Source: a virus. From it: 64,000 nt of DNA. A model generated the notes under the pieces. It did not search any database, was not told the DNA's origin, and saw only the letters and a list, made by a program, of their open reading frames with translations. The stretch is taken from the IMG/VR virus record IMGVR_UViG_3300025316_000590, positions 62,001-126,000 of that record; one strand, 5' to 3'. Of the stretch, positions 29,356 to 63,572 are shown one piece after another. The translations under genes and the position numbers were made by a program. How positions within the stretch are numbered: the stretch's first letter is position 1; each line of letters opens with the position of its first letter.

Positions 29356-29553
29356 TTCTACCTTTCTAGGTTCAGTATCATGCGAACCGCGTGCCGAAAC
29401 ACGCAAAACCTGAATTTCATCACCAAGCTCCTCGTCGGGAGCGAAGCCGTACCGTTCCTCAAATGCTGCGAGGGCTTCGCGTTCGGCGGTCTTCAGGCTT
29501 TCGGAGGTGATCACGACTGCCCGCCCGTTGCTGCGGCATAGGTATCGGGGCAT
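29350..29553 (-). CDS. Small hypothetical protein
   Basis: 67 residues (MPRYLCRSNGRAVVITSESL), start after GGAGAATGAACC. A compact alpha/beta pattern with TAEREALAAFEERYG helix. Its last codons overlap promoter M4. No family recognised. Confidence 0.6.
   Translation of the reverse strand: MPRYLCRSNGRAVVITSESLKTAEREALAAFEERYGFAPDEELGDEIQVLRVSARGSHDTEPRKVER
29375..29396 (-). promoter_or_regulatory. Sigma-54-like promoter M4
   Basis: CGGCACGCGGTTCGCATGAT: GG and GC 12 bp apart, followed by the shared ATGATA box. It lies inside the 3' end of the gene above it and reads into the structured leader and the 70-residue basic protein gene. Confidence 0.75.
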
Positions 29554-29556
29554 GGT

Positions 29557-29931
29557 TCATTCTCCGCACGGGCACATCGGGCCGCAAAGGTGGTCGGGGC
29601 CGCTGGTGTTCGCCTGCGGCAGGTCATACTCAGTGTTGCGGGATCCGTCCGCGTTCCAGGCGGTCGCCTCCTGCATGGCCAAGGCCCGGTCGCTGCATAC
29701 GGCGGCCAAGGCGTGCCAGCCGCAGTCGTTGCTGCGGGCCATTTCATCCAGAGCCTGGAAGTTCGCCCCGATCACCGGCAGTTCATCGGTCTGCACGCAC
29801 AGGCACTGGGCGATGCGGGCGATGGCAATTCGCAGCCGTATCGCGCTGTCCTCGGCGTTATTCACCGCCACTTCGGCCAAATTGCCGCGGGCCAGTTCAC
29901 GCATACTTCTGCCTTGGGGAAATATGGACAC
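29557..29931 (-). CDS. Hypothetical protein
   Basis: 124 residues, GTG start after TTAGGAGACTACC. Helical, with Cys residues at the end (HLCGPMCPCGE) that could bind metal. Operon with the genes either side. Confidence 0.55.
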   Translation of the reverse strand: MSIFPQGRSMRELARGNLAEVAVNNAEDSAIRLRIAIARIAQCLCVQTDELPVIGANFQALDEMARSNDCGWHALAAVCSDRALAMQEATAWNADGSRNTEYDLPQANTSGPDHLCGPMCPCGE

Positions 29932-29940
29932 GGTAGTCTC

Positions 29941-30117
29941 CTAATGAGTTCGGTGGTTGACGGTCAGCTTTCGTCGCGGGGCTTTCCGTTTTGGTTCATC
30001 GTAATGGCTTGGAGCGATATCGAAAAGCGTCCGCTGCACGGGGGTGTCGTCGAGGCACGCTCCGATCTCACGATCAAAGCGTTCGACGCTTTCTTTCGGT
30101 GGCCAGGGCTTATTCAT
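29941..30117 (-). CDS. Small hypothetical protein
   Basis: 58 residues (MNKPWPPKESVERFDREIGA, basic C-terminus KRKAPRRKLTVNHRTH). Start overlaps the upstream stop by ATGA, which fixes it. No family recognised. Confidence 0.55.
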   Translation of the reverse strand: MNKPWPPKESVERFDREIGACLDDTPVQRTLFDIAPSHYDEPKRKAPRRKLTVNHRTH

Positions 30118-30595
30118 CTTTGGGCTCCTCGGTTTTGCCGTAGTACTGATCCTGCTCGGCCTCGGTCATATCATGAACGTGGATGGGCGTGGCCGAGGTG
30201 ATATCCCACGTCCAGTCGCCGCTGCCGACAACCTTCAGTTGGCATGGTCCGTCACGGTGTAGGGTCTCGTGGCCGGCAATATCGGCTTCGTCTCCGTCCG
30301 TGGGCACAACGTCGGGGCCTGTGGGCTGCGGGGCAACGGTGGGCGTCCACTTGAAGCTATCGTAGAACGGGGCCAGCGTGCCCGGAACACGGCGATACAC
30401 GCCGATCAGCCGCCCGCCGTCCTCAAAGCTCTCGACATACTCGTGCAGTTCGGTAGCGGCTTCAGGACCATCGCAGTAGAACAGCCGCACGTCGCCGATG
30501 ATCAAAGCCAGGCCGATCCATTCGCAGTTGGGATCGAAGTCGTAGCTGATGCCTTTGTATGTGCGGTCTTGACCGCGAACATGAATGCTTCTCAT
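30110..30595 (-). CDS. Hypothetical protein
   Basis: 161 residues. Start after GAGAGGAAATCGACTGAT. Beta-rich N-terminal part with a YESFEDGGRLIGVYRR-like stretch; acidic C-terminus. Member of the leftward small-gene operon. No family recognised. Confidence 0.6.
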   Translation of the reverse strand: MRSIHVRGQDRTYKGISYDFDPNCEWIGLALIIGDVRLFYCDGPEAATELHEYVESFEDGGRLIGVYRRVPGTLAPFYDSFKWTPTVAPQPTGPDVVPTDGDEADIAGHETLHRDGPCQLKVVGSGDWTWDITSATPIHVHDMTEAEQDQYYGKTEEPKDE

Positions 30596-30596
30596 A

Positions 30597-30986
30597 TCAG
30601 TCGATTTCCTCTCCGGTAAAGTGCTTAGTGCAGTACGGGCACGTCCAGTCCGCACCGAGGGGCCGGTTGACGAACGGGTCGCCTTCCATCGGGCAGCAGA
30701 ACTCGCAGCCCGAGTATGCTGCGGGACGACCGTGGCAGACACTGGCTTCAGCACCGTGGCGGACACCGGCTTCAGCACCGTGAGCAAACGCCACCAGTGT
30801 ATGAATCCAGTCGCGGCTAATCGGCCTGCCAGTGTTGCGAACGGCAGTGATATCGATACCGTTGCCGCCGTTACGTGCGACCTTAGCGAACGTCATATCG
30901 GTATATGTACGCCGCAGGGCGTTCAGGGTGGATTCGGTGACGGCGTCGTTGCCGCCGTTGTAAATAGTGATCGGGGGTCGCGGCAT
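30597..30986 (-). CDS. Zinc-ribbon hypothetical protein
   Basis: 129 residues. The C-terminal part has CEFCCP and later CPYC, a likely zinc ribbon. In the middle an imperfect short repeat (HGAEAGVRHGAEASVCHG) reflects a ~21-base tandem duplication. Start after AGGATAAACC. Confidence 0.6.
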   Translation of the reverse strand: MPRPPITIYNGGNDAVTESTLNALRRTYTDMTFAKVARNGGNGIDITAVRNTGRPISRDWIHTLVAFAHGAEAGVRHGAEASVCHGRPAAYSGCEFCCPMEGDPFVNRPLGADWTCPYCTKHFTGEEID

Positions 30987-30989
30987 GGT

Positions 30990-31157
30990 TTATCCTTTCA
31001 GGTATCCGAGATCGTCCTTGGGCCAGTCGTGGCGGGCATACAGGGCTTGCCACCAAGCCGCCGCCTCCTTCTCGTCGGCGGGCTTGGGCTTCCAGCACTT
31101 GTCGCACGAACAATTCACCGCAGCGTGGCGTTCGGGCTTCTGTTTGTTCTTGGGCAT
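30990..31157 (-). CDS. Small Cys/Trp-containing protein
   Basis: 55 residues (MPKNKQKPERHAAVNCSCDK, then CWKPKPADEKEAAAWWQAL). Start after AAAGGAACC, 25 bases downstream of promoter M1. CSCxxC suggests a metal site. Confidence 0.6.
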   Translation of the reverse strand: MPKNKQKPERHAAVNCSCDKCWKPKPADEKEAAAWWQALYARHDWPKDDLGYLKG

Positions 31158-31180
31158 GATACGGTTCCTTTCGGTATCCG

Positions 31181-31201
31181 TATCATGCAATCGCCGTGCC
31201 C
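31181..31201 (-). promoter_or_regulatory. Sigma-54-like promoter M1
   Basis: GGGCACGGCGATTGCATGAT: TTGCA at -12 and GG 12 bp before. GCATGATACGG here and CCGTATCATGC over the start codon are an exact 11-bp inverted repeat with the ribosome site between them. Confidence 0.75.
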
Positions 31202-31207
31202 GTCGAA

Positions 31208-32038
31208 TCAAACCTCGTCGCGGATTCGCAGGTAGGTCGGGAACCGAGGCACTCCGTCGTCGGTCAGTTCTTGGTAGCGGAAGGTGATCACGGTGCCGAC
31301 CGGGAATCGGGACTCTTCGCGTTGTACGTCGTCGAACCCGCTGCCGACCGAGAACTCTTTACCGTTCGTCGCCCGGCATCGCAGGGCACCGAGGCGTCCG
31401 CGATGGCGGCCCTTGCCCGCGACGTAGCCGATTACCGTAGCCTCGGCGTCGTGGGTTAGCCATGTTCTACCGTGTAGGACGTGCTGCACCGCACCCTTGC
31501 TCACGTCAAGTTCTGTTGCGATTTCTCGAATCAACCACCCGATTCCGCGTAGTCTCCATACTTCATGAATATCGTCTTCTGTCAGTTTTGACCGGCAGTG
31601 CTGCTCGCCCCTGGGCATTCGACCTTTGGAAACAGCATCTCGAATATTGTCTTCTTGTGATCCTAAAAACAGGTGGTCGGGACGGCAGCACCCACGGTTA
31701 TCACAATGATGACAGACACTCTGGCCTTCCGGTATAGGACCGTGGGTTATGATCCATGCCGCCACATGCGGTCCGTACCCCGCGAACTTGCAACTCTCCA
31801 TAGCCCGTGCTTCCGTGACCACCGAGCCATTCCCAGCAGCTAGTGGCATCGTCTACTTTTGCAACGCGAGACCATAGACGGTCTGCGAGACTAGCCTCCC
31901 GATCTCCGATCAAAATCGCTAGCGGGTCACCGTGTGTTTTCCATCGCAGGTAGTGCTTTCGGCACCAACCGCGAGCTAGATGCACGTTCGGTTCGCTTGA
32001 CCCAGTGTCTGACGTTCGCTAGATTTACGTTTAGCCAT
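31208..32038 (-). pseudogene. Decayed HNH homing endonuclease fused to a DNA ligase C-terminal domain (HEG A)
   Basis: The pieces of an HNH_3-type HEG are present in three frames. MAKRKSSERQTLGQANRTC starts at 32038; the next frame has CRKHYLRWKTHGDPL and CWEWLGGHGSTGYGELQVRG; the third has HGPIPEGQSVCHHCDNRGCC and PDHLFLGSQEDN. The second break is at a GGGG run (about 31793) and looks like one extra G. From about 31450 the frame continues as an ATP-dependent ligase OB domain (HDAEATVIGYVAGKGRHRG to VPRFPTYLRIRDEV), close to the OB domain of the intact ligase. The OB-containing part (31208-31849) is still open. Confidence 0.8.
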
Positions 32039-32068
32039 GACTGCACTTCTACTGCATGTTGTGGATAG

Positions 32069-32100
32069 AACAGCCTGGAGGTTGGCCCCTCCAGGCTGTT
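32069..32100 (-). promoter_or_regulatory. HEG A leader hairpin
   Basis: AACAGCCTGGAGG pairs perfectly with CCTCCAGGCTGTT (13 bp, 6-base loop). It begins at about the transcription start predicted from the promoter at 32104-32132. Confidence 0.65.
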
Positions 32101-32103
32101 TGT

Positions 32104-32132
32104 ATTCTAGCCCAACTTGCGGAAAGCGTCAA
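32104..32132 (-). promoter_or_regulatory. HEG A sigma-70-type promoter
   Basis: TTGACG, 17-base spacer, TAGAAT on the minus strand. The -35 overlaps the ligase stop codon, so the cassette abuts the ligase gene exactly. Confidence 0.75.
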
Positions 32133-33151
32133 GCTTGGTTTTCCGCCATTCGTAAGAACGTAGGAAAGCGTGGAACTCCTCGGTCGGTCAACTCTTGATA
32201 GCTGTAAGTGATGCGGCTGCCGATAGTCGGTGGGTTCGACCGCTGTTCGTCTGAAAAACCAGACCCGACCGAAAACGTCTGGCCGTCTGGCATCTCGCAA
32301 ATCACTGCACCCATCACGCCTCGGTGCCTGCCCTTGCCCTGGGTGATACCGACGACTCTGGCTTCCATATCATGTCGGGTCTTCACCTTCAGGAGGGTCG
32401 TGCTGCGGCGGGCTTCGTACTTCGACTTGGGCTTGCGAAGCATCAAACCTTCCGCACCCTGAGCTTCGACCGAGGCGAGGTGCTGCCGCAGGTGTTCTTC
32501 GCCCTTGCAGCGAACCTGTCGAACCACCTGGGCCGGTCCTTCGCCTTGGACGACCTCGCGGAGGTATTCGTACCGTTCCTCAAACTCGCCGCCGTGCTTG
32601 GGGGCGTCGAAGACCATGTACTTGATCTGATGCCATTCCTCGCCGGGGTTCAGGCGACGGACGATGCTCATGGTTTCCTGAAACCGCTTGCGTCCGAGCC
32701 AAAGTTCGCCGTCCAGACAGACGTTCTTGGGCATCGCGTCTTTGAACCACTGCGGGGCGTGGAATTCGTTGCCCAGGCGGCTTATGAACTTCTTGCCGTC
32801 CCACCAAGCCCGAACCCCGTCGAGCTTCTCGCTCATGTGCCATCCAGTCGGATCTTGGACACCGTCCCACTTTTCGGCCAACAGTACGGGCGGGGCTTCG
32901 ACCGTTGGTTTTTCGATAGCAGGCCGTAACGTAGTACTTGCGATTGATGCAGTAGCCAAACCAAGACGTTCGTTTTCGGAAGCTTCACCTCGGAATTTCT
33001 TCAGGTGCTTGCACGTCCTCTGGTCTGGATGCAGATGTTGGTTTCTCCAGGACGGACAGGAGCAACTGTAGGCCCCGTTCGTGTTCTTAAGGATGTACGG
33101 GTTTTTACCCGATCCTTGCATGGTAGTTGATTCGCCGTTTTTCAAGTTCAT
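32129..33151 (-). CDS. ATP-dependent DNA ligase with N-terminal SWIM zinc finger
   Basis: 340 residues. Residues about 26-55 are a SWIM finger (YSCSCPSWRNQHLHP, then TCKHLKK). From residue 90 a ligase domain: SEKLDGVRAWWDG is motif I with the adenylated lysine, CLDGELW motif III, EGLMLRKP motif IV, LLKVKTRHDMEARV motif V, then an OB domain ending VPRFPTFLRM. Seals nicks in phage DNA. Start after AAGGAACTTAACC. Fragments of a second copy lie on both sides. Confidence 0.9.
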   Translation of the reverse strand: MNLKNGESTTMQGSGKNPYILKNTNGAYSCSCPSWRNQHLHPDQRTCKHLKKFRGEASENERLGLATASIASTTLRPAIEKPTVEAPPVLLAEKWDGVQDPTGWHMSEKLDGVRAWWDGKKFISRLGNEFHAPQWFKDAMPKNVCLDGELWLGRKRFQETMSIVRRLNPGEEWHQIKYMVFDAPKHGGEFEERYEYLREVVQGEGPAQVVRQVRCKGEEHLRQHLASVEAQGAEGLMLRKPKSKYEARRSTTLLKVKTRHDMEARVVGITQGKGRHRGVMGAVICEMPDGQTFSVGSGFSDEQRSNPPTIGSRITYSYQELTDRGVPRFPTFLRMAENQA

Positions 33152-33186: not shown

Positions 33187-33208
33187 ACATCATGCATCTT
33201 ACGTGCCA
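33187..33208 (-). promoter_or_regulatory. Sigma-54-like promoter M2
   Basis: TGGCACGTAAGATGCATGAT with the GAATTC box upstream. It contains the stop codon (TAA) of HEG B and reads into the ligase gene 36 bases on. Confidence 0.75.
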
Positions 33209-34402: not shown

Positions 34403-34424
34403 ATATCATGCGAACGCCGTGCCA
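34403..34424 (-). promoter_or_regulatory. Sigma-54-like promoter M3
   Basis: TGGCACGGCGTTCGCATGAT on the minus strand, about 65 bases before the SWIM gene. It forms a divergent pair with P1, about 95 bp away. Confidence 0.8.
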
Positions 34425-34519: not shown

Positions 34520-34541
34520 TGGCACGCCGTTCGCATGATAT
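34520..34541 (+). promoter_or_regulatory. Sigma-54-like promoter P1
   Basis: TGGCACGCCGTTCGCATGAT with GAATTC 14 bases before. First rightward site; drives the 231-residue gene 70 bases on. Divergent from M3. Confidence 0.8.
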
Positions 34542-35443: not shown

Positions 35444-36118
35444 ATGCCGTACAAAAACCCTGCCGACAAAAAGGCGAATGACGCACGACGTGCGGCGGCT
35501 ATCCTTGCTGACCCTGTTCAACGGGAGAGACGCAATGCACGGCATTGTAAGAACTATGCCCGCCTCAAAAAGAACTCATCTTGGTGTAGGAAACGAGCCG
35601 AGGATTCGCACCGCCGCAACCAAACCAAATACTACGCTGATGTGGCGGCATCCCGCAAGCTCGTGCGGGAGCGGTTATCGCAAATGCGGGTGGCCAACAC
35701 AGGCAATATCAACGGAAAAACCAAGGCGTATCGCCAACAGCACCGGAAGCAAATCAACGCCAGTACCAAGGCATGGCTGGTGGCCCATCCTGAACGGGCC
35801 AAAGCGTACCGGCGGGCGGCACATCTTCAGGCAAAATATAAGATGACCCACAAAACATACGAGGAGATGTTTAACGCTCAGGGTGGCGTATGTGCTGCGT
35901 GCGGTCAGCCTGAAACAAGTAAACGGCTAGGAGTGATTCGGCACATGCACGTCGATCACGACCACGCCACCGGCAAGGTGCGAGCCCTATTGTGCCACAG
36001 ATGTAATTCCGCCCTTGGACTTCTCAAGGACGACCGAACACTGGTGGCTAACCTGCTACTCTACATCAGCAAGTACCAACCCGTCACCCGCCGAAGAATT
36101 CAAACTGTTGGCACATGA
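35444..36118 (+). CDS. Endonuclease VII-like homing endonuclease (HEG C)
   Basis: 224 residues. The C-terminal domain (CAACGQPE then HVDHDHATGKVRALLCHRC and NSALGLLKDD) is the recombination endonuclease VII fold with two zinc-binding Cys pairs and the catalytic H-x-D-H-D-H. The N-terminal ~120 residues are basic and helical, for DNA binding. Last codons (RRRIQTVGT) and the stop lie in promoter P2. Own promoter and structured leader. Likely mobile. Confidence 0.85.
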   Translation: MPYKNPADKKANDARRAAAILADPVQRERRNARHCKNYARLKKNSSWCRKRAEDSHRRNQTKYYADVAASRKLVRERLSQMRVANTGNINGKTKAYRQQHRKQINASTKAWLVAHPERAKAYRRAAHLQAKYKMTHKTYEEMFNAQGGVCAACGQPETSKRLGVIRHMHVDHDHATGKVRALLCHRCNSALGLLKDDRTLVANLLLYISKYQPVTRRRIQTVGT

Positions 36119-36130
36119 CGTGCATGATAC
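36109..36130 (+). promoter_or_regulatory. Sigma-54-like promoter P2
   Basis: TGGCACATGACGTGCATGAT with GAATTC upstream. It contains the HEG C stop codon. A start codon with a good ribosome site lies 23 bases on. Confidence 0.75.
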
Positions 36131-36612: not shown

Positions 36613-36634
36613 CGGCACGCCGGTTGCATGATAA
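36613..36634 (+). promoter_or_regulatory. Sigma-54-like promoter P3
   Basis: CGGCACGCCGGTTGCATGAT, matching TTGCA at -12. It reads into a non-coding stretch with three hairpins, not directly into a gene. Confidence 0.75.
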
Positions 36635-36750: not shown

Positions 36751-36763
36751 TGGGCCACCACGG

Positions 36764-36890
36764 TTGACGTAGCGAGTAGATCAGCTAGACTAACGTTAGT
36801 CGGTTGACCTTGCACTTGGCCGACGAGCTTTGATTCATTTACGCCCAACCCGTCTCACGTCACTCGCAAGGTCAAACGTGGGGCGGGTTG
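36764..36890 (+). promoter_or_regulatory. HEG D sigma-70-type promoter and interleaved-stem leader
   Basis: TTGACG (36764), 16-base spacer, TAGACT (36786-36791). Stem A: TTGACCTTGC (36804-36813) with GCAAGGTCAA (36866-36875). Stem B: CAACCCGTCTCACG (36846-36859) with CGTGGGGCGGGTTG (36877-36890), 14 bp with two G-U pairs. GTCGG (36799) and CCGAC (36820) can form a small competing hairpin over the 5' strand of A. Confidence 0.75.
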
Positions 36891-36909
36891 GTGTCGTTAG
36901 GATCATATC

Positions 36910-37431
36910 ATGCCGGAAAGACGCAGAATAACGAGCGTGCGGTTCATACCGCTGACGCAGGGCCGGTTTGCTATCGTGGATGCAGCCGATTACGAATGGC
37001 TGACGCGATTCAGCAAGTGGTGCTACAACGGAACCAAAGGCTATGCCGTCAGCAGCCTAGTTCGCCGGTTGTCTCGGGCCGGCGAATCGTATCAGATGCA
37101 CCAGATCATTATGCGGGCTCCTCCCGGCGTAAGCCCAGACCATAAGAATGGCAACAAGCTCGATAACCGCCGCAGCAATCTGCGGCTGGCCAACGGTACG
37201 CAGAATATGGCCAACCGCGATCTACAGAGCAACAACACGACCGGCTACAAAGGTGTAGTTAGGCATCGTGGTAAATTCCGAGCCCGCATCGGCGATGGAC
37301 TTCGCAAGGGTGGTCGGCATCTTGGCATATTCTTGACCGTTGAAGAAGCAGCTTTGGCCTACAACACGGCGGCTGTTGAAATGTACGGTGAGTTCGCTTG
37401 TTTGAATTCGGTTGGCACGCGATTCGCATGA
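36910..37431 (+). CDS. HNH/AP2 homing endonuclease (HEG D)
   Basis: 173 residues. HNH_3-type core (MHQIIMRAPPGVSPDHKNGN, then KLDNRRSNLRLANGTQN) followed by an AP2 DNA-binding domain (GYKGVVRHRGKFRARI to TVEEAALAYNTAA). The last codons (SVGTRFA) and stop lie within promoter P4. Homing endonuclease, probably mobile. Confidence 0.85.
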   Translation: MPERRRITSVRFIPLTQGRFAIVDAADYEWLTRFSKWCYNGTKGYAVSSLVRRLSRAGESYQMHQIIMRAPPGVSPDHKNGNKLDNRRSNLRLANGTQNMANRDLQSNNTTGYKGVVRHRGKFRARIGDGLRKGGRHLGIFLTVEEAALAYNTAAVEMYGEFACLNSVGTRFA

Positions 37432-37434
37432 TAC
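37413..37434 (+). promoter_or_regulatory. Sigma-54-like promoter P4
   Basis: TGGCACGCGATTCGCATGAT, GAATTC upstream; overlaps the HEG D stop codon. Confidence 0.75.
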
Positions 37435-37557: not shown

Positions 37558-37686
37558 ATGTCTGAACGAGAAAAAAACGCCTGGAACGAGATCGACGAAC
37601 AAGCCGCCCGCGAGGGTTCGGCCCGCCGCCGCGAGTTGCACGGCCCCGAAAACGGCCCCGAAGATGATGGAGACGCACCGTGCTAA
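37558..37686 (+). CDS. Small charged protein
   Basis: 42 residues (MSEREKNAWNEIDEQAAREG, then SARRRELHGPENGPEDDGDA), very polar. Start after GAAGGAATGCTAG. The next gene starts inside its last codons. Function unknown. Confidence 0.5.
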   Translation: MSEREKNAWNEIDEQAAREGSARRRELHGPENGPEDDGDAPC

Positions 37687-38854: not shown

Positions 38855-39187
38855 ATGAACCACGAAGAATTCCTCAAGTTTCTTGGCAGCGAGGCCCGAC
38901 CCAAGTGTGGCCGGTGCTGGTGGCGGGAGGGCCGCAAGTGCTACAACGAGAACCTCGGTGCAGTACCGGGCGAGGGTCAGGACATCACCGCTGAACTGTG
39001 GGCTACCTGCTCTGCCACACCCGCGTACCAGAACAGTCGGGCGACCCTGGCTCAGGCCCTGCCGAACATCTTGCTGGCCGTCGCGGCACAGACGCAGCCC
39101 GCTGAAAAGGTTGTCCAGTGCTGCGAAGCTGTCGAGTCGGCATACGATTCGCATGATACCGCTGGTCAGAAAGGAACTGAATCATGA
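38855..39187 (+). CDS. Hypothetical Cys-containing protein
   Basis: 110 residues from the ATG after AATGGTGAT. CGRCWWREGRKC near residue 20 may bind metal. The last ~17 codons run through promoter P5. Function unknown. Confidence 0.6.
   Translation: MNHEEFLKFLGSEARPKCGRCWWREGRKCYNENLGAVPGEGQDITAELWATCSATPAYQNSRATLAQALPNILLAVAAQTQPAEKVVQCCEAVESAYDSHDTAGQKGTES
39138..39159 (+). promoter_or_regulatory. Sigma-54-like promoter P5
   Basis: CGGCATACGATTCGCATGAT; weaker -24 box (GGCATA) but GG-GC spacing kept. Inside the end of the gene before; next start 25 bases on. Confidence 0.6.
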
Positions 39188-44578: not shown

Positions 44579-44600
44579 TGGCACAGCGTTCGCATGATAT
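44579..44600 (+). promoter_or_regulatory. Sigma-54-like promoter P6
   Basis: TGGCACAGCGTTCGCATGAT followed by ATGCC. Leader has a GCGGGC/GCCCGC hairpin before the next gene. Confidence 0.75.
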
Positions 44601-44973: not shown

Positions 44974-44995
44974 TGGCACGCCATTCGCATGATAT
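44974..44995 (+). promoter_or_regulatory. Sigma-54-like promoter P7
   Basis: TGGCACGCCATTCGCATGAT; reads into a 230-base structured region. Confidence 0.8.
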
Positions 44996-46001: not shown

Positions 46002-46023
46002 TGGCACGGCATTCGCATGATAT
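46002..46023 (+). promoter_or_regulatory. Sigma-54-like promoter P8
   Basis: TGGCACGGCATTCGCATGAT, GAATTC upstream; reads into a ~300-base non-coding RNA. Confidence 0.8.
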
Positions 46024-46028
46024 GCTTA

Positions 46029-46316
46029 CCGTTCCTGCGGCCCTTGCCTGAGTGAGGTGAAGGCCCGACAAGCGAGGTGCGAAGTACAAGCAATACCGGC
46101 TCCGTCCCCCGACGCCAAGATCGAGGGCACGAGGCCGCAGGAGCGAACGGTCCTTAGAACGCGGGGTAAAACCTGCGGGTCAGGTCTTACGGGAGTAAGA
46201 CCGCAGCGGTTCGATTCCGCAGGGATCACCTCAGAAACCGAACTGGCTCGAAAATCATGGCTGGGCAACACTCGCGCGTGAGCCCACGGGTTCCTGCGGC
46301 CCCAAGAGCAGTTCGG
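46029..46316 (+). ncRNA. Large structured RNA with tRNA-like element between P8 and P9
   Basis: Domain I (46029-46150) is closed by CCGTTC and CTGCGGCC pairing with GGCCGCAG and GAACGG (14 bp, 4-base bulge). Domain II (46149-46228) is tRNA-like: GGTCCTT/AGGGATC 7-bp end stem, a T-arm-like GCGG-TTCGATT-CCGC, and GGTCTTAC/GTAAGACC as a long arm, but no canonical D-arm. Domain III is closed by CCGAACTG/CAGTTCGG (46238-46316) and contains a second TTCCTGCGGCC (46291), able to pair with the 3' strand of domain I. No known family recognised. Confidence 0.6.
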
Positions 46317-46331: not shown

Positions 46332-46353
46332 TGGCACAGCCTTCGCATGATAG
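46332..46353 (+). promoter_or_regulatory. Sigma-54-like promoter P9
   Basis: TGGCACAGCCTTCGCATGAT. The HEG F cassette follows ~60 bases on, so the gene it once served may be displaced. Confidence 0.7.
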
Positions 46354-46410
46354 GGTAGGCAGAAAGCAAACACGACCGAGTCGGGTGACGGCCCAAAGTG
46401 CGGCGTCCCG

Positions 46411-46536
46411 TTGACGCCGCAGGTAAACCGACTAGAATAAGGGCAGTCGGTTGACCTCACAACTTGGCCGACAAACGAATCATGACTAACCAACCCGTCC
46501 TGCGTGACTTGTGAGGTCAAACGTGGGGCGGGTTGG
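46411..46536 (+). promoter_or_regulatory. HEG F sigma-70-type promoter and interleaved-stem leader
   Basis: TTGACG (46411), 16-base spacer, TAGAAT (46433-46438). Stem A: TTGACCTCAC (46451-46460) with GTGAGGTCAA (46511-46520). Stem B: CCAACCCGTCCTGCG (46490-46504) with CGTGGGGCGGGTTGG (46522-46536). Stem A differs from that of HEG D at two base pairs, both compensated. GTCGG/CCGAC around A is also kept. Confidence 0.8.
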
Positions 46537-46556
46537 CGTCATTTCGGAGTTATATT

Positions 46557-47054
46557 ATGTCGCGTAATCCAGTTGGTACGGCGTGGCGGGACATGAAGTA
46601 CCGCTGTTTTAATTCAAGCCACCAAGCCTATTTTAACTATGGTGGTCGTGGAATTACGGTCTGCTTGGGTTTACAAGATTTTACTAAGTTCACCCAGGTT
46701 CTAGGCCCACGACCAGAAGGCTACACTCTTGACCGCGAAGATAACGAGGGTAGCTACACCTGTGGTGAATGCGACCAGTGCCGGGAGAATGAGTGGGTGA
46801 AGAACGTAAGGTGGGCTACGCGAAGTGATCAGCAGCTTAACCGAAGGACAACGAATCATACCGTACTGTACAGGGGTGTAAGTCTCCATCTTGGAAAGTA
46901 CTACTTAGCCCAAATTCGCTGTAACGGGTTACTACAATACGTGGGGTGTTTTCCTACGGCAAGGGAAGCCGCCATCGCGTACAACCAGGCGGCTACAGCC
47001 ATTCGAGGGGCGAACGCTAAGATAAACCGAATTCGGATTCAGACCGGCACGTGA
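46557..47054 (+). CDS. HNH-like/AP2 homing endonuclease (HEG F)
   Basis: 165 residues. YGGRGITVCLGLQDFTKF, GYTLDREDNEGSYTC and VRWATRSDQQLNRR are HEG blocks; then an AP2 domain (LYRGVSLHLGKYYLAQI to TAREAAIAYNQAA). A longer frame start exists but ATG 46557 fits the leader. The end (NRIRIQTGT) lies in promoter P10. Confidence 0.8.
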   Translation: MSRNPVGTAWRDMKYRCFNSSHQAYFNYGGRGITVCLGLQDFTKFTQVLGPRPEGYTLDREDNEGSYTCGECDQCRENEWVKNVRWATRSDQQLNRRTTNHTVLYRGVSLHLGKYYLAQIRCNGLLQYVGCFPTAREAAIAYNQAATAIRGANAKINRIRIQTGT

Positions 47055-47066
47055 TTCGCATGTTAA
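47045..47066 (+). promoter_or_regulatory. Sigma-54-like promoter P10
   Basis: CGGCACGTGATTCGCATGTT; GAATTC upstream; contains the HEG F stop codon (TGA). The downstream box is ATGTTAA rather than ATGATAT. Confidence 0.65.
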
Positions 47067-47786: not shown

Positions 47787-47975
47787 ATGGATGACCTAAC
47801 CAGAAAGCTGATCAGCAAGTGTTCGTACCAGCAAGACTTCGCGGCAGCCCTGAAATTTGCCGCCGACGTCTTGGCGATTCTGAACAAGCACGATGCCGAT
47901 CAGCCGACCATCCTGATGTCATCCATCGAGTTGTACGAAACTGAAAAAGTAGTAAACGGCACGTCAAGTGCATGA
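47787..47975 (+). CDS. Small helical protein
   Basis: 62 residues, helical (QDFAAALKFAADVLAILNKH). Its last codons and stop (NGTSSA) are within promoter P11. Function unknown. Confidence 0.5.
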   Translation: MDDLTRKLISKCSYQQDFAAALKFAADVLAILNKHDADQPTILMSSIELYETEKVVNGTSSA

Positions 47976-47978
47976 TAT
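47957..47978 (+). promoter_or_regulatory. Sigma-54-like promoter P11
   Basis: CGGCACGTCAAGTGCATGAT; includes the stop codon of the small gene before. Leader has an ACCGCC/GGCGGT hairpin. Confidence 0.7.
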
Positions 47979-49394: not shown

Positions 49395-49468
49395 CGCGGA
49401 GTGGAGCAGTCCGGTAGCTCATGAGATTCATAATCTCAAGGTCGCAGGTTCAAATCCTGTCTCCGCCA
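49395..49468 (+). tRNA. tRNA-Met (CAU), initiator-like
   Basis: Acceptor G2-G7/C66-C71 with an unpaired C1xC72; D-stem GAGC/GCTC with A11-U24; anticodon arm TGAGA-TTCATAA-TCTCA, anticodon CAT; T-arm GCAGG-TTCAAAT-CCTGT; A73. The C1 mismatch and A11-U24 pair are hallmarks of bacterial initiator tRNA. The three G-C pairs of a classical initiator anticodon stem are not present. CCA is not encoded. Confidence 0.85.
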
Positions 49469-49496
49469 CTCGTAGCCATCAGGCTAGGTTAGGTCG

Positions 49497-49546: not shown

Positions 49547-49922
49547 GGGGGCGAATTGGATTCGACCGGGCAGCTAGAAGATTGAGTTGCGTGTCGTGGT
49601 TGGTCAGCAGGCCACGTTAATAGCCGACCAAAAACTTACTTGCCAAAAACAAGTTCGAGAAGGCTCCGGCCTTCGCCCTCGTGGCCTAATAACCACGAGC
49701 CGACTGCGAACCCATCCGAGAGGTTCAAAAGCCGGCTGTAAACTCGGATCGTTCACGGTCGCTGCTGGTCACGCCGTGGATTAAAAATGCTACCGGCTGG
49801 TCGAACGACAACCCTGTTGATCCGGGGATCGCGAGACGACAGCTTGCAAATAGGATCGACTACACACGTAGACGCTTGATCGGAAATGTCGCGGGACGCG
49901 GGTTCGATCCCCGCCGCCTCCA
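49547..49922 (+). ncRNA. ssrA: tmRNA (ssrA)
   Basis: Rescues stalled ribosomes and tags their nascent proteins. The ends GGGGGCG and CGCCTCC pair (one G-U), and the T-arm is GCGGG-TTCGATC-CCCGC with A73. The 5' GGATTCGAC block is present. Pseudoknot PK1 (CGTGG/CCACG with TTGGTC/GACCAA) precedes the tag frame, which starts at GCC (49642) and encodes AKNKFEKAPAFALVA, then two TAA stops in the loop of CTCGTGG/CCACGAG. A further pseudoknot (AGCCG/CGGCT with ATCCGAG/CTCGGAT) follows. Length 376 bases, normal for a one-piece tmRNA. Confidence 0.95.
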
Positions 49923-49925
49923 CTA

Positions 49926-52838: not shown

Positions 52839-54395
52839 GTGAGCATGAATTACCTTGAGCAGATAGACCTGCTCACCATTTGCTGTTACCGCGACCGCGG
52901 CGGCAAAACAATCTCAGCTATCTGTCCCACGACCCTGTACGAACCCGCCGAGGTACGCAACCTCGCCGATAAGCTGTACGCCTATATCGACGAGCATCAC
53001 TGCCCGCCCAAAGATCTGTTCATCAACATGATCGAGGAACTGCGGGAACGCTACCCCGACGACGAGGATACTTACGATCACATTCAGCGGTCGATTCTCG
53101 ACGCCAAGACGACCGTCAACGAGGACTACACCGTCCCCAAGCTGCGGCGGTTCATGCGAACGCAGAACATGAGCCTGGCACTGCGAAGGATCATCGAACT
53201 GCACAACGCCGGCGATGACGAGGCCGCGATGCACGCGATGGTGAAGGCCGCCGACGAACGTGACGCAGCCCTTGACCCTGGCCTCGACCTGAATCTTCTG
53301 GGTAAGTTCGTTGGCCCGCAGCACCGCGAGCAGAACGACAGCTTCGAGACCGGCATCGAAATCCTCGACAAGCATCGCGTGACGCCCGCCCGCAAAGAGA
53401 TGCTGATGTTCGTCGCCCCAGCGAAGCACGGCAAGACCTTTGCGATGGTACAGTTTGGCAAGCGGGCCATGCTCCAGCGCAAGAAGGTCTGCCACGTGAC
53501 CTTGGAGATGTCGCAAGAGGAGATCATGTATCGCTATGTGCGAACCATGACGACGATGGGCGACGCAGATACGATCACCAGGCCGTGGATTCAAAAGGAC
53601 GAGGAAGGCAAGTTCCTCGACTGCGGCACCACGGAGGTTCCCAACCCAGCCCGGTTCGGCACCGACGAGGGCGACCGAGTCATCAACAAGTTCCTGCGGA
53701 AGTTCAAGGGCAGGCTACCCCTGAAGATTAAGGAGTTCCCCAGCGGCCAGCTTTCGGTGATGGCCCTGCGGAAGTGGCTGCGGGCCTTGGAAAGCGTGCA
53801 TAACTACGTCCCCGACCTGCTCCTGGTTGATTATCCCGACCTGATGAAGGAAGACCAGTCCAGCAACCGCGACTATCGTATTCAGCTAGACAAAATTCTG
53901 GTCGGGCTTCGCGGCATCGCCAGTGAGATGGCGTGTGCCGTGGTGGTGGCCAGCCAGACGAACCGCGACGGGGCTCACAAGAAGAACGTGCGGGCTCACG
54001 ACGTTGCTGAATCGTTCGGCAAGGTGATGACGTTTGACAAGGGCATCTTCTACAGCCAGACCGACGACGAGAAGAAGGCCAACCTCGCCCGCCTGTTCGT
54101 GCTGGGCCGCAACGTCAAGAGCAGCTTCGAGTTTCTCATCAGCCAGTGCTACGATACGAATACGTTCGCCGTGGACTGTGCTTACATCGACAAGGATTGT
54201 TACCCGCCGCGTGGATCGCCGGATCGCGATTCTAATACCGCGCGAAGTGGGCGGCAACGAGTGCCTGAACGGGAAGCGGAGGACGACGGAGAGACTGCCG
54301 TCGCTCCGCCGCGAGGTCGGGCTCAGGGAAGAGCCCGACCGGACCCGGTTCTTGCGGCATATAGCGGAAGTGCTAATGCAAGTGGCCACGTTTGA
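52839..54395 (+). CDS. dnaB: DnaB-type replicative helicase
   Basis: 518 residues, GTG start 2 bases after the previous stop. Residues about 1-150: N-terminal helical domain. RecA-like domain: APAKHGKTF (Walker A, Ala for the first Gly), CHVTLEMSQEE (H1a), LLLVDYPDL (Walker B), VVVASQTNRD (H3), GRNVKSSFEF (H4). Unwinds DNA ahead of the fork. The C-terminal 60 residues are a basic/Pro-rich extension. Confidence 0.88.
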   Translation: MSMNYLEQIDLLTICCYRDRGGKTISAICPTTLYEPAEVRNLADKLYAYIDEHHCPPKDLFINMIEELRERYPDDEDTYDHIQRSILDAKTTVNEDYTVPKLRRFMRTQNMSLALRRIIELHNAGDDEAAMHAMVKAADERDAALDPGLDLNLLGKFVGPQHREQNDSFETGIEILDKHRVTPARKEMLMFVAPAKHGKTFAMVQFGKRAMLQRKKVCHVTLEMSQEEIMYRYVRTMTTMGDADTITRPWIQKDEEGKFLDCGTTEVPNPARFGTDEGDRVINKFLRKFKGRLPLKIKEFPSGQLSVMALRKWLRALESVHNYVPDLLLVDYPDLMKEDQSSNRDYRIQLDKILVGLRGIASEMACAVVVASQTNRDGAHKKNVRAHDVAESFGKVMTFDKGIFYSQTDDEKKANLARLFVLGRNVKSSFEFLISQCYDTNTFAVDCAYIDKDCYPPRGSPDRDSNTARSGRQRVPEREAEDDGETAVAPPRGRAQGRARPDPVLAAYSGSANASGHV

Positions 54396-54442
54396 TAGAA
54401 CCTGTCATAATGAGGCGTGTCTGGTTCGCTAGGAGAAATAAC

Positions 54443-55363
54443 ATGCTCACATCCGTGGCCCGCAGACCCATTGACGCTGTTCGTCACCGCCTGATTGTTC
54501 GGGTGCGTGAGCTGGACTTGGTTTATATTCCGAACATATCATTTAGCCGCGTCAAATCCCGACAGGAGGCACGCATCCTTGCGGATCGCCCGGTAGGACC
54601 GCCCGTGAAGGCCGTGAAACCCACACCGGGCCTGCCTCCGTACCTGCGGGCACTGTACGATACGCCCCTGCTGACGCGGGAACAGGAGGCTCACCTGTTC
54701 CGCAAGATGAACTACTTGAAATACAAGACGTCCCGCCTGCGAGATGATCTTGATTCGCACCGGCCATCCGTGCGGGCCATGCATGAGATTCTGCAATTAG
54801 CCGACCAGGCTATGGCCGTCCGCAACGAGATCATCACGGCCAACTTGCGACTGGTGGTGAACATCGCCCGCCGGTATGCACACAGCAGCGATGAACTGTT
54901 CGACCTGATTAGCGACGGCAATATCTCCCTGATGCGGGCTGTGGACAGGTTCGATTACGACCGCGGCTTCAGGTTTTCAACCTATGCGACCTGGGCATTG
55001 ATCAAGAACTATTCACGCAGCATCGCTGTGGAGATTCGGCAACTGGCACGTTTCCGCACGGGCGAGGAGAACCCGCTGGATAACGTGGAAAGCCCGTTAA
55101 GCGACCTTCCGCATCGTGTTGACGTGATGCAGGCCCGGCAGCATGGAATCGCCAAGATGCTTCAGCACCTTGACGAACGCGAGCATTTCATCATTGTCAG
55201 CCGATTCGGACTTGATCGCGACGCGATGACTCTTACGGACGTCGGCAAGGCCCTTGGCGTCGGCAAAGAACGCATTCGGCAGTTGGAGGCCCGAGCGATG
55301 GATAAGCTGATGCGGGCCGCCGTAACGGAACGCATCGATCCATTCAGTATGATCCAAGTTTGA
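54443..55363 (+). CDS. Sigma-70-family factor, planctomycete-like
   Basis: 306 residues from the ATG after TAGGAGAAATAAC. Region 1.2: PPYLRALYDTPLLTREQEAH; region 2: NLRLVVNIARRYAHSSDELF, then LISDGNISLMRAVDRFDYDR and FSTYATWALIKNYSR; region 4: LDEREHFIIVSRFG and GVGKERIRQLEARAMDKL. It likely redirects host RNA polymerase. The sequence resembles planctomycete housekeeping sigma factors as I recall them, suggesting capture from the host. Confidence 0.88.
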   Translation: MLTSVARRPIDAVRHRLIVRVRELDLVYIPNISFSRVKSRQEARILADRPVGPPVKAVKPTPGLPPYLRALYDTPLLTREQEAHLFRKMNYLKYKTSRLRDDLDSHRPSVRAMHEILQLADQAMAVRNEIITANLRLVVNIARRYAHSSDELFDLISDGNISLMRAVDRFDYDRGFRFSTYATWALIKNYSRSIAVEIRQLARFRTGEENPLDNVESPLSDLPHRVDVMQARQHGIAKMLQHLDEREHFIIVSRFGLDRDAMTLTDVGKALGVGKERIRQLEARAMDKLMRAAVTERIDPFSMIQV

Positions 55364-59723: not shown

Positions 59724-59724
59724 T

Positions 59725-60015: not shown

Positions 60016-60423
60016 ATGAAGGCAAAACGCTTCGTCGCCCTGGTTCGGATTTGGCGGTTTGTGCCGCCTTGTATCGATCAAGGGACAAACGAGATCGAAC
60101 ACGAAGGTACGATGGTCGTGAACCGGGCGACCACAGTCTGGCCGGTTTGGCGTGGCTGTACCCGCCAGCCGCTACGATCCCGCGAATACTTCTGGATCAC
60201 CTATCGCGGGAAACGGTATCCTGTAGACAGGGCCGAGGACGGTGAGGGTGTGGCGTATGAGGTGCGATTGGCATCCGACGACAACCCATTGACGGCAACA
60301 CAGCTTGACCGTAAGACGATCACCCGCGAGACGGCCCGCGAAACCGCACTGGCCCGTGAACTTCTACACCGCGGCCTGGTTGCCAAAGCCAAAACCGGGC
60401 GGCAGAAAGGAGGCCGCCGATGA
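60016..60423 (+). CDS. Hypothetical protein
   Basis: 135 residues from the ATG after GAAAGGAGGATTTCCC. Beta-rich middle (TTVWPVWRGCTRQPLRSREY). ATGA overlap with the next gene. Function unknown. Confidence 0.6.
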   Translation: MKAKRFVALVRIWRFVPPCIDQGTNEIEHEGTMVVNRATTVWPVWRGCTRQPLRSREYFWITYRGKRYPVDRAEDGEGVAYEVRLASDDNPLTATQLDRKTITRETARETALARELLHRGLVAKAKTGRQKGGRR

Positions 60424-61031
60424 TGCACGTCACAGCACTATTCAAGACACCAAAGGATACGACCTGGAGGCCGGTCAGCTACGGCACTGGAAGCAACCTG
60501 CGATGGGCGGCACATAGCTGCTTCGTTGCGACAGCAGGCACCGGCATTACCTATGAAGAGGTGAAGATCGAGGGCAAGCCCAAGGGCGAGTATGATATGG
60601 AGGCCCACGTCACCCGCAAGAACCCTGACGGGAGCGTGGCCGCCGAATGGCGGATCGTACCATCGCCGGGTTCTCGCCCCGACCCCGATGCCCCCAAGTT
60701 CGTACCGCAGCCGCCCCGACCGTCTGTGGCCGATACGCGGGCCAATAGCAAGGCCCACAAGCCCGCCGTGGCCGCACAGGCGGCCCGCCGTGGCGTGGCA
60801 GTGGGTACGGTGGTAGAACGGGCCAAGACGCCCGAACCCGCCGAACTGCCCCCAATACCGTCGCACGCGTCGGCAGGTTTGGTTCGGCGACCTATCGCCC
60901 GCCGCCCCCTGACCCGCAAGTCCCTCGACAACGCCCCGCCAGCCCCGACCGTTCGCGGTCCATTGCCCCGCCGCAGGCTAACGGTCAGCGGGCAGGCCCA
61001 GGCTGGCAGGACTATCGTGGAATACGACTGA
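60420..61031 (+). CDS. Hypothetical protein with Pro/Arg-rich tail
   Basis: 203 residues. Folded first ~75 residues (FVATAGTGITYEEVKIEGKP), then a long basic/Pro-rich tail (RRPIARRPLTRKSLDN). Start fixed by ATGA overlap. Function unknown. Confidence 0.6.
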   Translation: MMHVTALFKTPKDTTWRPVSYGTGSNLRWAAHSCFVATAGTGITYEEVKIEGKPKGEYDMEAHVTRKNPDGSVAAEWRIVPSPGSRPDPDAPKFVPQPPRPSVADTRANSKAHKPAVAAQAARRGVAVGTVVERAKTPEPAELPPIPSHASAGLVRRPIARRPLTRKSLDNAPPAPTVRGPLPRRRLTVSGQAQAGRTIVEYD

Positions 61032-61057
61032 AATCCGCGAATTCAAATTTTGGCAAT

Positions 61058-61079
61058 TGGCACGGCGGTTGCATGATAC
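61058..61079 (+). promoter_or_regulatory. Sigma-54-like promoter P12
   Basis: TGGCACGGCGGTTGCATGAT: full match to TGGCACG-N4-TTGCA. GAATTC upstream. Reads into a 200-base structured leader. Confidence 0.85.
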
Positions 61080-61127
61080 TACCCACAGAGCCGCGAGGCT
61101 AAACAACCCGACAACCCAGATGTTTTC

Positions 61128-61234
61128 CTGCTCCTTCAAATGCGGTGCCGCGAGGCTGCCTACAATCGGGGATAGTATGGCCCCAACCGCACAACTCGGC
61201 GAGGGTTGCACTTCTGAAACGAAGTGGGGAGCAG
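61128..61234 (+). ncRNA. Three-way-junction leader RNA downstream of P12
   Basis: CTGCTCC (61128) pairs with GGAGCAG (61228-61234). Inside, TGCGGT (61141) pairs with ACCGCA (61186-61191) around GGGG/CCCC (61168-61184), and CACTTC (61209) pairs with GAAGTG (61221-61226). This is a three-way junction, riboswitch-like in shape. It ends ~42 bases before the start codon. No known riboswitch recognised. Confidence 0.55.
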
Positions 61235-61276
61235 AAAGACCTCTGGGTAAACCCTGAAAGCAGAAGGAAGAATACC

Positions 61277-61606
61277 ATGCCCTGGCGCGAAGTGATCACC
61301 GACGAGGATACGCCTGAGTACGCCTTGTTCCTGGCCTTGGACAACCAAGCCTTTATGTTCCGCAGCGTCGATGCCCTTGTGGCGAAGACTTGCCGTCCCG
61401 CCGAGTGGATCCGCGAAGTGGTCGCGGCCCACCCCGATTTGGTTCGCCGTAGCAACGGCCAGCGTGAAACCTACGGGTTGGTCGAGCGAATCGGCAACCT
61501 GGAGCCCGCCCCCGTCTCGGCCCATTACGAGCAGCCGATGGTGAACGACAACCTCGGCGAGGTCGAGGACGAGGTCACCCCGCCCGACGCAGACGGCGAA
61601 CTGTAG
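61277..61606 (+). CDS. Hypothetical protein
   Basis: 109 residues from the ATG after AGAAGGAAGAATACC. Helical (RSVDALVAKTCRPAEWIREV resembles a helix-turn-helix). Ends PDADGEL. Function unknown. Confidence 0.6.
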   Translation: MPWREVITDEDTPEYALFLALDNQAFMFRSVDALVAKTCRPAEWIREVVAAHPDLVRRSNGQRETYGLVERIGNLEPAPVSAHYEQPMVNDNLGEVEDEVTPPDADGEL

Positions 61607-61619
61607 AATTGAATGCGAC

Positions 61620-61641
61620 TGGCACGGCGGTTGCATGATAC
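61620..61641 (+). promoter_or_regulatory. Sigma-54-like promoter P13
   Basis: TGGCACGGCGGTTGCATGAT, identical to P12 over 20 bases. Confidence 0.85.
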
Positions 61642-61660
61642 TACGGTAGAAACCAAACCC

Positions 61661-61691
61661 GCCCGCCCGCGAGACCCAAACGCGGGCGGGC
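61661..61691 (+). promoter_or_regulatory. Leader hairpin of the amidoligase gene
   Basis: GCCCGCCCGCG/CGCGGGCGGGC, 11 bp, 9-base loop, 18 bases before the start codon. Confidence 0.55.
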
Positions 61692-61709
61692 CTAACCGAG
61701 AGCAGAAAC

Positions 61710-62585
61710 ATGAACGCGAATGAGCTGACCTTTGGTGTTGAGATCGAGACCATTGCGGGCCAAGACGCCCGCAACGCTGGCCTGCGGGTCGGAGCTTACG
61801 GGTCGCCAGTTCAGGTTCCCTACCTGCCGCACGGATGGCGGTGCAAAGGGGACGGCAGCATTAGCTGCAACAACAGCAACCAGAACGCCTGCGAGGTGAT
61901 CAGCCCGATTCTTCGCGGTGCGGCGGGGATGGCCCAAGTGGTCGCCGCCTGCCAAGCCCTGCGGGAAAAAGGTCATATCGTCAACACGACCTGCGGCGTC
62001 CACGTCCATATCGGATGGGACCAGAGCCGCAGCGAGGTGAACGCGGAAAGCCTGAAACGTCTCATCACGATAGTGGCATACCTTGAGAAGGGACTGTACG
62101 CGATCACGGGCACGAAGGCTCGCGAGCGAGGACGCTACAGCAAGCCGGTGCGGCAGTACCTGCGACCAACGCAGGTGCAGCGTCACGCTACCTCCGACCG
62201 CTACCACGCTTTGAACCTCGCCAACATTCGGCCCGGTGGCAAGCAGACGGTCGAGTTCCGAATCTTCAGCGGCAGCATTTCTGCCACGAAGATAGTCGGG
62301 TGGATTCAGGTTTGCCTGGGCATCGTCGAGCGAGCCCAAAACGGCAAGCGATGCCCAGCTTGGTCGCCCAAGCCCCTGCAAGGTGGCTGGCGGAAGAAGG
62401 GCGAGGGCGCGGGTGAGTGCGAGCGTCTCCTCGGCTACCTTGCCTGGGCTGAAGCCTATGCACGGCGGCACGGCGGAAACAAGTACGGCTTGATCGCCCC
62501 CGACCTGATTCCTGCCGACACGATCATGGCCGAGTTTCGCCGCCTTGCCAAACGCTACGATAGCGAGGCCCGCGACGAGTTGTAA
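61710..62585 (+). CDS. Amidoligase (COOH-NH2 ligase type)
   Basis: 291 residues. LTFGVEIETI at the start, CGVHVHIG in the middle, RYHALNLANI and TVEFRIFSGS are the conserved blocks of the amidoligase family, glutamine-synthetase-like ATP-dependent enzymes that join carboxyl and amino groups. Ends EARDEL. A class II amidotransferase lies downstream, so the two may cooperate in a peptide or protein modification. Confidence 0.8.
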   Translation: MNANELTFGVEIETIAGQDARNAGLRVGAYGSPVQVPYLPHGWRCKGDGSISCNNSNQNACEVISPILRGAAGMAQVVAACQALREKGHIVNTTCGVHVHIGWDQSRSEVNAESLKRLITIVAYLEKGLYAITGTKARERGRYSKPVRQYLRPTQVQRHATSDRYHALNLANIRPGGKQTVEFRIFSGSISATKIVGWIQVCLGIVERAQNGKRCPAWSPKPLQGGWRKKGEGAGECERLLGYLAWAEAYARRHGGNKYGLIAPDLIPADTIMAEFRRLAKRYDSEARDEL

Positions 62586-62590
62586 ACCAA

Positions 62591-62612
62591 AGGCACACCA
62601 GATGCATGGTAG
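62591..62612 (+). promoter_or_regulatory. Sigma-54-like promoter P14
   Basis: AGGCACACCAGATGCATGGT; degenerate but GG-GC spacing kept. Next start 72 bases on. Confidence 0.6.
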
Positions 62613-62682
62613 TGTCTAGAGAAGCCCGCCCGCACCCACGGGCCTTACCGAACCAAACCCATAGAGCAGAAGGACGAGTATC

Positions 62683-62889
62683 ATGTGTGAAGAACAGGAA
62701 ATTCGCAGTTACGATGAGGGTCTGGAAGTTAGCGTGATGTCAGTCGAAGACTATTCGGACGAAGTTTCGGACGAATATGCTGATCGACTGGTTGTCGTAA
62801 TAACCAACGCGGACTGCGTGACGCATTCCGCCGATCTGCAAGACCTGATCGACTGGGTAAAGCAGAATCGCCCAGATATGCTGAAGTAA
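62683..62889 (+). CDS. Small acidic protein
   Basis: 68 residues, very acidic (MCEEQEIRSYDEGLEVSVMS, then VEDYSDEVSDEYADR). RBS AGAAGGACGAGTATC. Between amidoligase and amidotransferase; a possible substrate. Function unknown. Confidence 0.5.
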   Translation: MCEEQEIRSYDEGLEVSVMSVEDYSDEVSDEYADRLVVVITNADCVTHSADLQDLIDWVKQNRPDMLK

Positions 62890-62908
62890 GTGTGCCCGTG
62901 ATGGCTAG

Positions 62909-62937
62909 TTGACTAATCGCGGACACCCGTCTAGAAT
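62909..62937 (+). promoter_or_regulatory. HEG G sigma-70-type promoter
   Basis: TTGACT, 17-base spacer, TAGAAT, 17 bases before the HEG G start. No hairpin leader here. Confidence 0.7.
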
Positions 62938-62954
62938 AGCTGTAGGAGGACGTT

Positions 62955-63569
62955 ATGAAACGCCGAACGCAGCCAGACGAATGTATGACTGAGGGATGCC
63001 GCTGCAAAGCCCTGTCGCGGGGCCTGTGCCCGCCGTGTTACGCGAGAGTGAGCAGGCTGGTACAACTAGGCCAGACGACCTGGAACGTCGAGGTGTCCGC
63101 AGGGCGGGCTATACCGGCCCGCGACAACCACGGAGAAAGCGGGACAAGGCTGCACGATATTTGGGAAGGGATACGAGGCCGCTGCTACAACCGTAACAGT
63201 ACCAGCTATCGGCACTACGGAGCCCAAGGGATACGGATGTGCCGATCATGGCACCGCTACCTGAACTTCAGGGATTGGGCACTGGCGAACGGCTACCGCG
63301 ACGGGCTGGTATGCGACCGCAAGGACGGAAGGAAGAATTATACTCCCGGCAACTGCCGGTGGGTTACGCAGGCTGAGAATGTCCGCAACAATTTGAACGT
63401 GGAGTGGTTCACGGCCTGGGGCGAAACGAAAACGGTGGGTCAGTGGTTTCAGGACGCACGGTGCGTGTTGGATAATGAAAGTACGCTGCGAATGCGGATT
63501 GCTCACGGATGGGATGTGGAAAAATCGATTACAAAACCGGCCAGGGCTTATGGCACGCGAAGTGCATGA
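62955..63569 (+). CDS. HNH-like homing endonuclease (HEG G)
   Basis: 204 residues. N-terminal zinc pairs (CMTEGCRCKALSRGLCPPC), then YRHYGAQGIRMCRSWHRY, then VCDRKDGRKNYTPGNCRWVT and NVRNNLNVEW, the HEG blocks, and a C-terminal HTH-like part. Stop codon lies in promoter P15. Start after GTAGGAGGACGTT. Confidence 0.75.
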   Translation: MKRRTQPDECMTEGCRCKALSRGLCPPCYARVSRLVQLGQTTWNVEVSAGRAIPARDNHGESGTRLHDIWEGIRGRCYNRNSTSYRHYGAQGIRMCRSWHRYLNFRDWALANGYRDGLVCDRKDGRKNYTPGNCRWVTQAENVRNNLNVEWFTAWGETKTVGQWFQDARCVLDNESTLRMRIAHGWDVEKSITKPARAYGTRSA

Positions 63570-63572
63570 TAT
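63551..63572 (+). promoter_or_regulatory. Sigma-54-like promoter P15
   Basis: TGGCACGCGAAGTGCATGAT; contains the HEG G stop codon; the amidotransferase starts 46 bases on. Confidence 0.75.

Follow-up and report, generated by a model that had tools for sequence, protein, structure and literature searches.

Sigma-54 is rarely used by phages, and an example named in the literature is Pseudomonas phage YuA (Mesyanzhinovviridae). A 64,000-nucleotide stretch of viral DNA (the window; bases 62001-126000 of the 192,133-base IMG/VR record IMGVR_UViG_3300025316_000590) carries a repeated element resembling the -24/-12 promoters of sigma-54 (RpoN), raising the question of which RNA polymerase reads it. 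A first-pass annotation of the window had listed 15 plus-strand and four minus-strand sites and proposed a regulon built on host sigma-54 or on a phage factor recognizing that element. Each of the 19 is found where it was placed, and together they belong to a genome-wide array of 24 that almost certainly consists of promoters. We favor, at a probability of roughly 0.4, the reading that these are the promoters of one phage regulon of small non-structural genes and structured leaders, and that the element is composite, with a part suited to sigma-54 overlapping a part suited to a sigma factor encoded by the phage.

A 138-base-pair repeat (99.3% identity) occurs at both ends of the record, and the genome is therefore treated as complete; genes for tail tape-measure, portal and terminase proteins mark it as that of a tailed phage. 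The phage is uncultured and probably infects planctomycete bacteria, since the closest relatives of its sigma factor are planctomycetal. With the proteins used as queries, the phage collection yielded no close relatives, and IMG/VR searches with the helicase, sigma factor, DnaB and one structural protein recovered only two near-identical contigs, which, relative to the window, carry an insertion of ∼391 bases with a 13-base overlap at about window position 37641.

The annotation had suggested scanning the full genome with a matrix built from its sites. Such a matrix, spanning 33 positions and with Markov shuffles as control, yields 24 discrete sites without intermediates: these score 24.7-44.7 bits, whereas no other position in the 192 kb exceeds 11.1 and no shuffle 17.4. 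Nineteen lie in the window and five outside it (Table 1). The element is also the most prominent result of an unbiased gapped-word search over all intergenic DNA, which returned no second conserved phage-specific motif. The simpler 16-mer TGGCACG-N4-TNGCA, with two mismatches allowed, is barely above chance (39 matches versus 27 expected), and its exact form is present in only seven window sites. The shared TGGCACG-N4-TTGCA or TCGCA described earlier is thus correct for those seven but too loose for the rest, which vary at the first T, at the G after CAC, or at the T two before GC. The spacing GG-N10-GC was rightly called exact, holding in all 19 window sites and in all 24 overall.

The full element, YGGCACR-N4-TYGCATGATA, is longer than a sigma-54 site. 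With the T of TGGCAC numbered 0, this position is T or C in 22 of 24 sites, followed by GG at 1-2, C at 3 and A at 4 in every site, C at 5 (and with it the GGCAC block) in 23, and a purine at 6 in all. Position 11 is T in 19 sites, position 12 is T or C and positions 13-14 are GC in 24/24. Immediately after the GC, and overlooked in the first reading, is the extension GCATGATA, in which T16, G17 and T19 are invariant while A occurs at 15, 18 and 20 in 23, 22 and 22 sites; a pyrimidine-purine-rich YRRAA block occupies positions 28-32. Left halves lacking TGATA show no excess over shuffles in the phage genome. The flanks are random and uninformative, which argues that site identity is upheld by selection and rules out recent duplication as the source of the conservation. 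Most sites do have an upstream motif, (T)GAATTCG/TTGATTC at -9 to -20 (log-likelihood 53 versus 25-42 for controls), and a GATTC, GAATC or GAATTC word lies within 30 bases upstream in 15 of the 24 (background 6.5%). Interpretation of the GATTC and GAATC words as GANTC (CcrM-type) methylation targets was dropped, as their genome-wide counts are as expected.

The sites lie about 20-110 bases 5′ of start codons or before folded leaders, often directly past the stop codon of the preceding gene, and are absent from the structural and replication operons throughout the genome, much as the annotation had described for the window. This strict orientation and placement before start codons argue for promoters.

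How much of the element can sigma-54 explain? Positions 0-15 follow its consensus down to the degenerate places, with TGGCAC and TGC blocks at the proper spacing, a purine after CAC, a free N4, and T or C two before GC; three sites (including those at 61058 and 61620) are perfect TGGCACG-N4-TTGCA matches, bearing out the earlier remark that several match completely. One explanation would be a plain host sigma-54 regulon, in which a host enhancer-binding protein acts from solution and TGATA serves as an additional operator or as a melting element. Nineteen of 20 genomes of the inferred host clade contain a sigma-54 gene, making use of the host factor plausible, and there is a precedent in YuA, whose development is stated to be strictly dependent on host sigma-54 (PMC5053324). 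Its record has three annotated -24/-12 promoters, although these lie in its structural region and have no close match to the exact consensus, whereas here 24 near-identical sites precede non-structural genes.

We nonetheless regard this explanation as doubtful. TGATA after the -12 GC is not needed by sigma-54, and it is absent from the exact consensus sites of 15 planctomycete genomes, which fall mostly in DNA lacking a long open frame and are split about evenly between A and T at -11. The phage sites, in contrast, have A(-11) in 23 of 24, and their T(-26) and T(-14) are relaxed. A matrix made from 27 intergenic Salmonella sites backed by chromatin immunoprecipitation (PMC3844500) scores seven phage sites at 15.3-19.2 bits, twelve at 13.1-13.7 and five at 7.6-10.4, compared with 13.7-19.4 for those verified Salmonella sites, so that 17 of the 24 fall at or below the weakest of the 27. 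At a threshold of at least 12 bits this matrix finds 19 array sites together with 13 other positions, a poorer separation than the full element achieves. From these scores, the absence of TGATA from host sites, and the lack of any excess of TGATA-less halves, we conclude that sigma-54 accounts for the left part of the element and not the right, and the label of sigma-54-type promoters should be confined to the core sequence.

The annotation saw no activator in the window and proposed looking elsewhere for an AAA+ gene; the complete phage genome has no PF00158 (Sigma54_activat) match and no GAFTGA-like loop in six frames, and no match to the sigma-54 DNA-binding domain, ruling out a phage-encoded sigma-54 or AAA+ activator. 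Both would have to come from the host, which may have an activator. No common element was found at -260 to -35 of the sites, much of which is coding, nor any NtrC- or NifA-type site; enhancers, though, have no common consensus. In the putative hosts the composite motif occurs no more often than expected (4 matches in 20 planctomycete genomes), ruling out a host regulon with the same motif, and in 84,980 species there are only scattered single matches in unrelated genomes. A relaxed version occurs elsewhere in IMG/VR in single copies, except on an unrelated AT-rich viral contig (L032, 288-375) that has a tandem pair of TGGCAY-N5-TTGCATGATA sites at a distance of 67 bases. Of the regulon first proposed, then, the promoter array with its sigma-54-like core stands, together with a host clade that has sigma-54, while sigma-54 acting alone is not well supported, given the invariant TGATA, the relaxed T(-26) and T(-14), and the lack of an activator gene and of a common enhancer. 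That host sigma-54 is involved in some way we still consider probable.

The alternative offered with the annotation, that a phage factor reads the element, gains weight because the window contains a gene for a sigma-70-family factor, missed in that reading, and the genome contains two further sigma-like fragments. The factor matches PF04542 (5.3e-16) and PF04545 (1.6e-12), and its gene lies behind a DnaB-like helicase gene as part of the replication operon, before which there is no array site. Promoters of the ordinary TTGAC-N16/17-TAGAAT class are found in intergenic DNA, including one upstream of the DnaB and sigma gene block. The best relatives of the phage factor are Planctomycetota sigma factors in frames of ∼560-604 amino acids (E 1.8e-80), with regions 1.2, 2 and 4 up to 51% identical, although the phage protein lacks their 250-300-residue helix-turn-helix N-terminus; against single genomes of eight other groups the best matches are ∼1e-20 and mostly cover region 2 alone. 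Region 4 retains the K/R-E-R-I-R-Q helix, which suggests that a TTG-type -35 is read.

Region 2.4 is FSTYATWALIKNYSRSI, compared with FSTYATWWIRQAITR in primary sigma factors, so that K replaces Q437 and S replaces T440 of E. coli sigma-70. Q437H and T440I are known changes in sigma-70 that accept C at -12 (PMC2613000), and by analogy the lysine may read such a C. If CATGAT at positions 14-19 is taken as a -10 element, in a register of our choosing, it has C(-12), A(-11) in 23 of 24 sites and T(-7) in all.

These observations could be explained without sigma-54 altogether: CATGATA would be the -10 and TTGAWTC a loose -35 for the phage sigma factor, with GGCAC, in the spacer, bound by a further phage protein and the likeness to sigma-54 promoters a coincidence. 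In favor of this are the presence of the gene in an operon with no array site before it, the invariant -10-like bases, the additional fragments, and the five 28-base-pair repeats in the YuA record, annotated separately from its -24/-12 promoters as 'putative sigma70 promoter requiring phage-encoded cofactor', which differ in sequence from the element described here. We nevertheless think it unlikely, as the ten-base GG-to-GC spacing combined with sigma-54-type degeneracy would arise by chance about once in 10^4 to 10^5 by our own arithmetic, and no protein binding the spacer has been identified. Some involvement of the phage sigma factor is, on balance, likely.

The two fragments are a region-2-like protein (genome 130127-130651) and a region-4-only protein (genome 160136-160681) with an altered recognition helix, TTVARIRQ, and they are possibly a split sigma factor. 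Since the matches of both to sigma regions are weak or partial, either could be cited as another phage factor acting on the repeat, which might even have some function other than as a promoter; there is, however, no direct link between these proteins and the array, and the orientation and placement of the sites favor promoters, so we consider explanations of this kind improbable. No single-subunit or large multi-subunit phage RNA polymerase was seen: a search for the T7 type with PF00940 gave no match, although its control also matched nowhere, and none of the large open reading frames shows such a polymerase in Pfam.

The composite reading, which we prefer, is motivated by the fact that the -10 and the -24/-12 interpretations converge on one predicted start, base 26 counted from the first T. 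The left part, YGGCACR-N4-TYGC, would offer host sigma-54 RNA polymerase a -24/-12 core to bind, and CATGATA, in register with it (A at -11, T at -7), a -10 element for a sigma-70-family factor tolerating C at -12, presumably the phage sigma; the upstream TTGAWTC/GAATTC resembles a -35 or an activator site. Host polymerase would first make the phage sigma from the ordinary promoters, the phage sigma would then open the 24 sites, and host sigma-54 holoenzyme would occupy the same DNA, either firing sites with a host activator or competing for them. This fully specified version, in which a phage sigma captured from planctomycetes and host sigma-54 take over from one another or compete at the 24 sites, we think less likely than not. 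A partial parallel exists in E. coli, where sigma-54 holoenzyme can sit on overlapping sigma-70 promoters and repress them, so that both factors may bind and compete for one region (PMC4551910), but those promoters are few and heterogeneous whereas the phage has a single element 24 times over in exact register. With its dedicated repeated promoter and phage sigma gene the array also recalls other phages. The T4 gp55 late and SPO1 sigma factors are phage-encoded and have promoters of their own; a sigma-54-like block is added here, and reading of the element by the phage sigma is only predicted.

Several points weigh against the composite reading. It would be unusual for an overlapping double promoter to be kept identical at 24 sites, and the -35-like TTGAWTC occurs at several spacings without a fixed 16-18-base distance and is missing at some sites. 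Position 29 (a purine in 23 of 24, preceded by a pyrimidine) is more start-like than position 26 and is an exact fit to neither model. K at the Q437 position is also found in the planctomycete homologues, so that the lysine of the phage factor is an inherited one, and the probable planctomycete host is deduced from a single protein, the sigma factor. If the composite reading is true, one sequence lets the phage address two unrelated holoenzymes; if the phage sigma alone reads the element, the array warns that sequences looking like perfect sigma-54 promoters can arise by convergence. The array points to a system of gene regulation in phages of planctomycetes.

Table 1. Array sites and the sigma-factor gene; window positions except where genome positions are indicated.
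Feature	Sequence	Position	Strand	Context
Site	CGGCACGCGGTTCGCATGATA	29376-29396	minus	before strongly folded leader
Site	GGGCACGGCGATTGCATGATA	31181-31201	minus	ATG ∼45 bases downstream
Site	TGGCACGTAAGATGCATGATG	33188-33208	minus	57 bases before DNA ligase gene
Site	TGGCACGGCGTTCGCATGATA	34404-34424	minus	
Site	TGGCACGCCGTTCGCATGATA	34520-34540	plus	divergent from 34424 site; 91 bases before 231-residue open reading frame
Site	TGGCACATGACGTGCATGATA	36109-36129	plus	
Site	CGGCACGCCGGTTGCATGATA	36613-36633	plus	
Site	TGGCACGCGATTCGCATGATA	37413-37433	plus	before folded leader
Site	CGGCATACGATTCGCATGATA	39138-39158	plus	46 bases before 152-residue open reading frame
Site	TGGCACAGCGTTCGCATGATA	44579-44599	plus	
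Site	TGGCACGCCATTCGCATGATA	44974-44994	plus	
Site	TGGCACGGCATTCGCATGATA	46002-46022	plus	before long hairpin and tRNA-like element
Site	TGGCACAGCCTTCGCATGATA	46332-46352	plus	
Site	CGGCACGTGATTCGCATGTTA	47045-47065	plus	112 bases before 208-residue open reading frame
Site	CGGCACGTCAAGTGCATGATA	47957-47977	plus	102 bases before 200-residue open reading frame
Site, perfect sigma-54 consensus	TGGCACGGCGGTTGCATGATA	61058-61078	plus	
Site, perfect sigma-54 consensus	TGGCACGGCGGTTGCATGATA	61620-61640	plus	90 bases before amidoligase gene (61710-62585)
Site	AGGCACACCAGATGCATGGTA	62591-62611	plus	
Site	TGGCACGCGAAGTGCATGATA	63551-63571	plus	67 bases before class-II glutamine amidotransferase gene (genome 125618-126298)
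Sites outside window		genome 29368, 30031, 30434, 30782	minus	
Site outside window		genome 128044	plus	
Sigma-70-family factor, 323 residues, regions 2 and 4		54392-55363	plus	Pfam matches; relatives are planctomycete sigma factors

The amidoligase and class-II glutamine amidotransferase genes are each directly downstream of an array site. Among the structured leaders, those of the sites at 29396 (minus) and 37413 (plus) have a common ACGCTGAC/GTCAGCGT closing stem and possibly represent one RNA family. Past the site at 46002 there is a long hairpin, ACCGTTCCTGCGGCC...GGCCGCAGGAGCGAACGGT (window 46026-46235), and beyond it a tRNA-like fold that contains GGTTCGATTCC and has an 8-base-pair anticodon-like arm; neither ARAGORN nor Rfam calls this fold. 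Two homologous units (36763-36898 and 46410-46543) share blocks of 75-83% identity. Each has a TTGACG-N16-TAGAMT promoter to itself and contains two hairpins, GTCGGTTGACC, which is conserved, and CCAACCCG...CGGGTTGG, which is very stable; the units are probably paired small RNAs.

The window also encodes a tRNA-Met (49395-49469) and a transfer-messenger RNA (49547-49923) with the tag AKNKFEKAPAFALVA, which ends in ALVA in place of the usual ALAA. Elsewhere in the genome are a DNA polymerase A with an N-terminal domain of the uracil-DNA glycosylase superfamily (L013, 9531-12203) and a terminase large subunit split by an intein with a LAGLIDADG domain (L009, 16570-19335).

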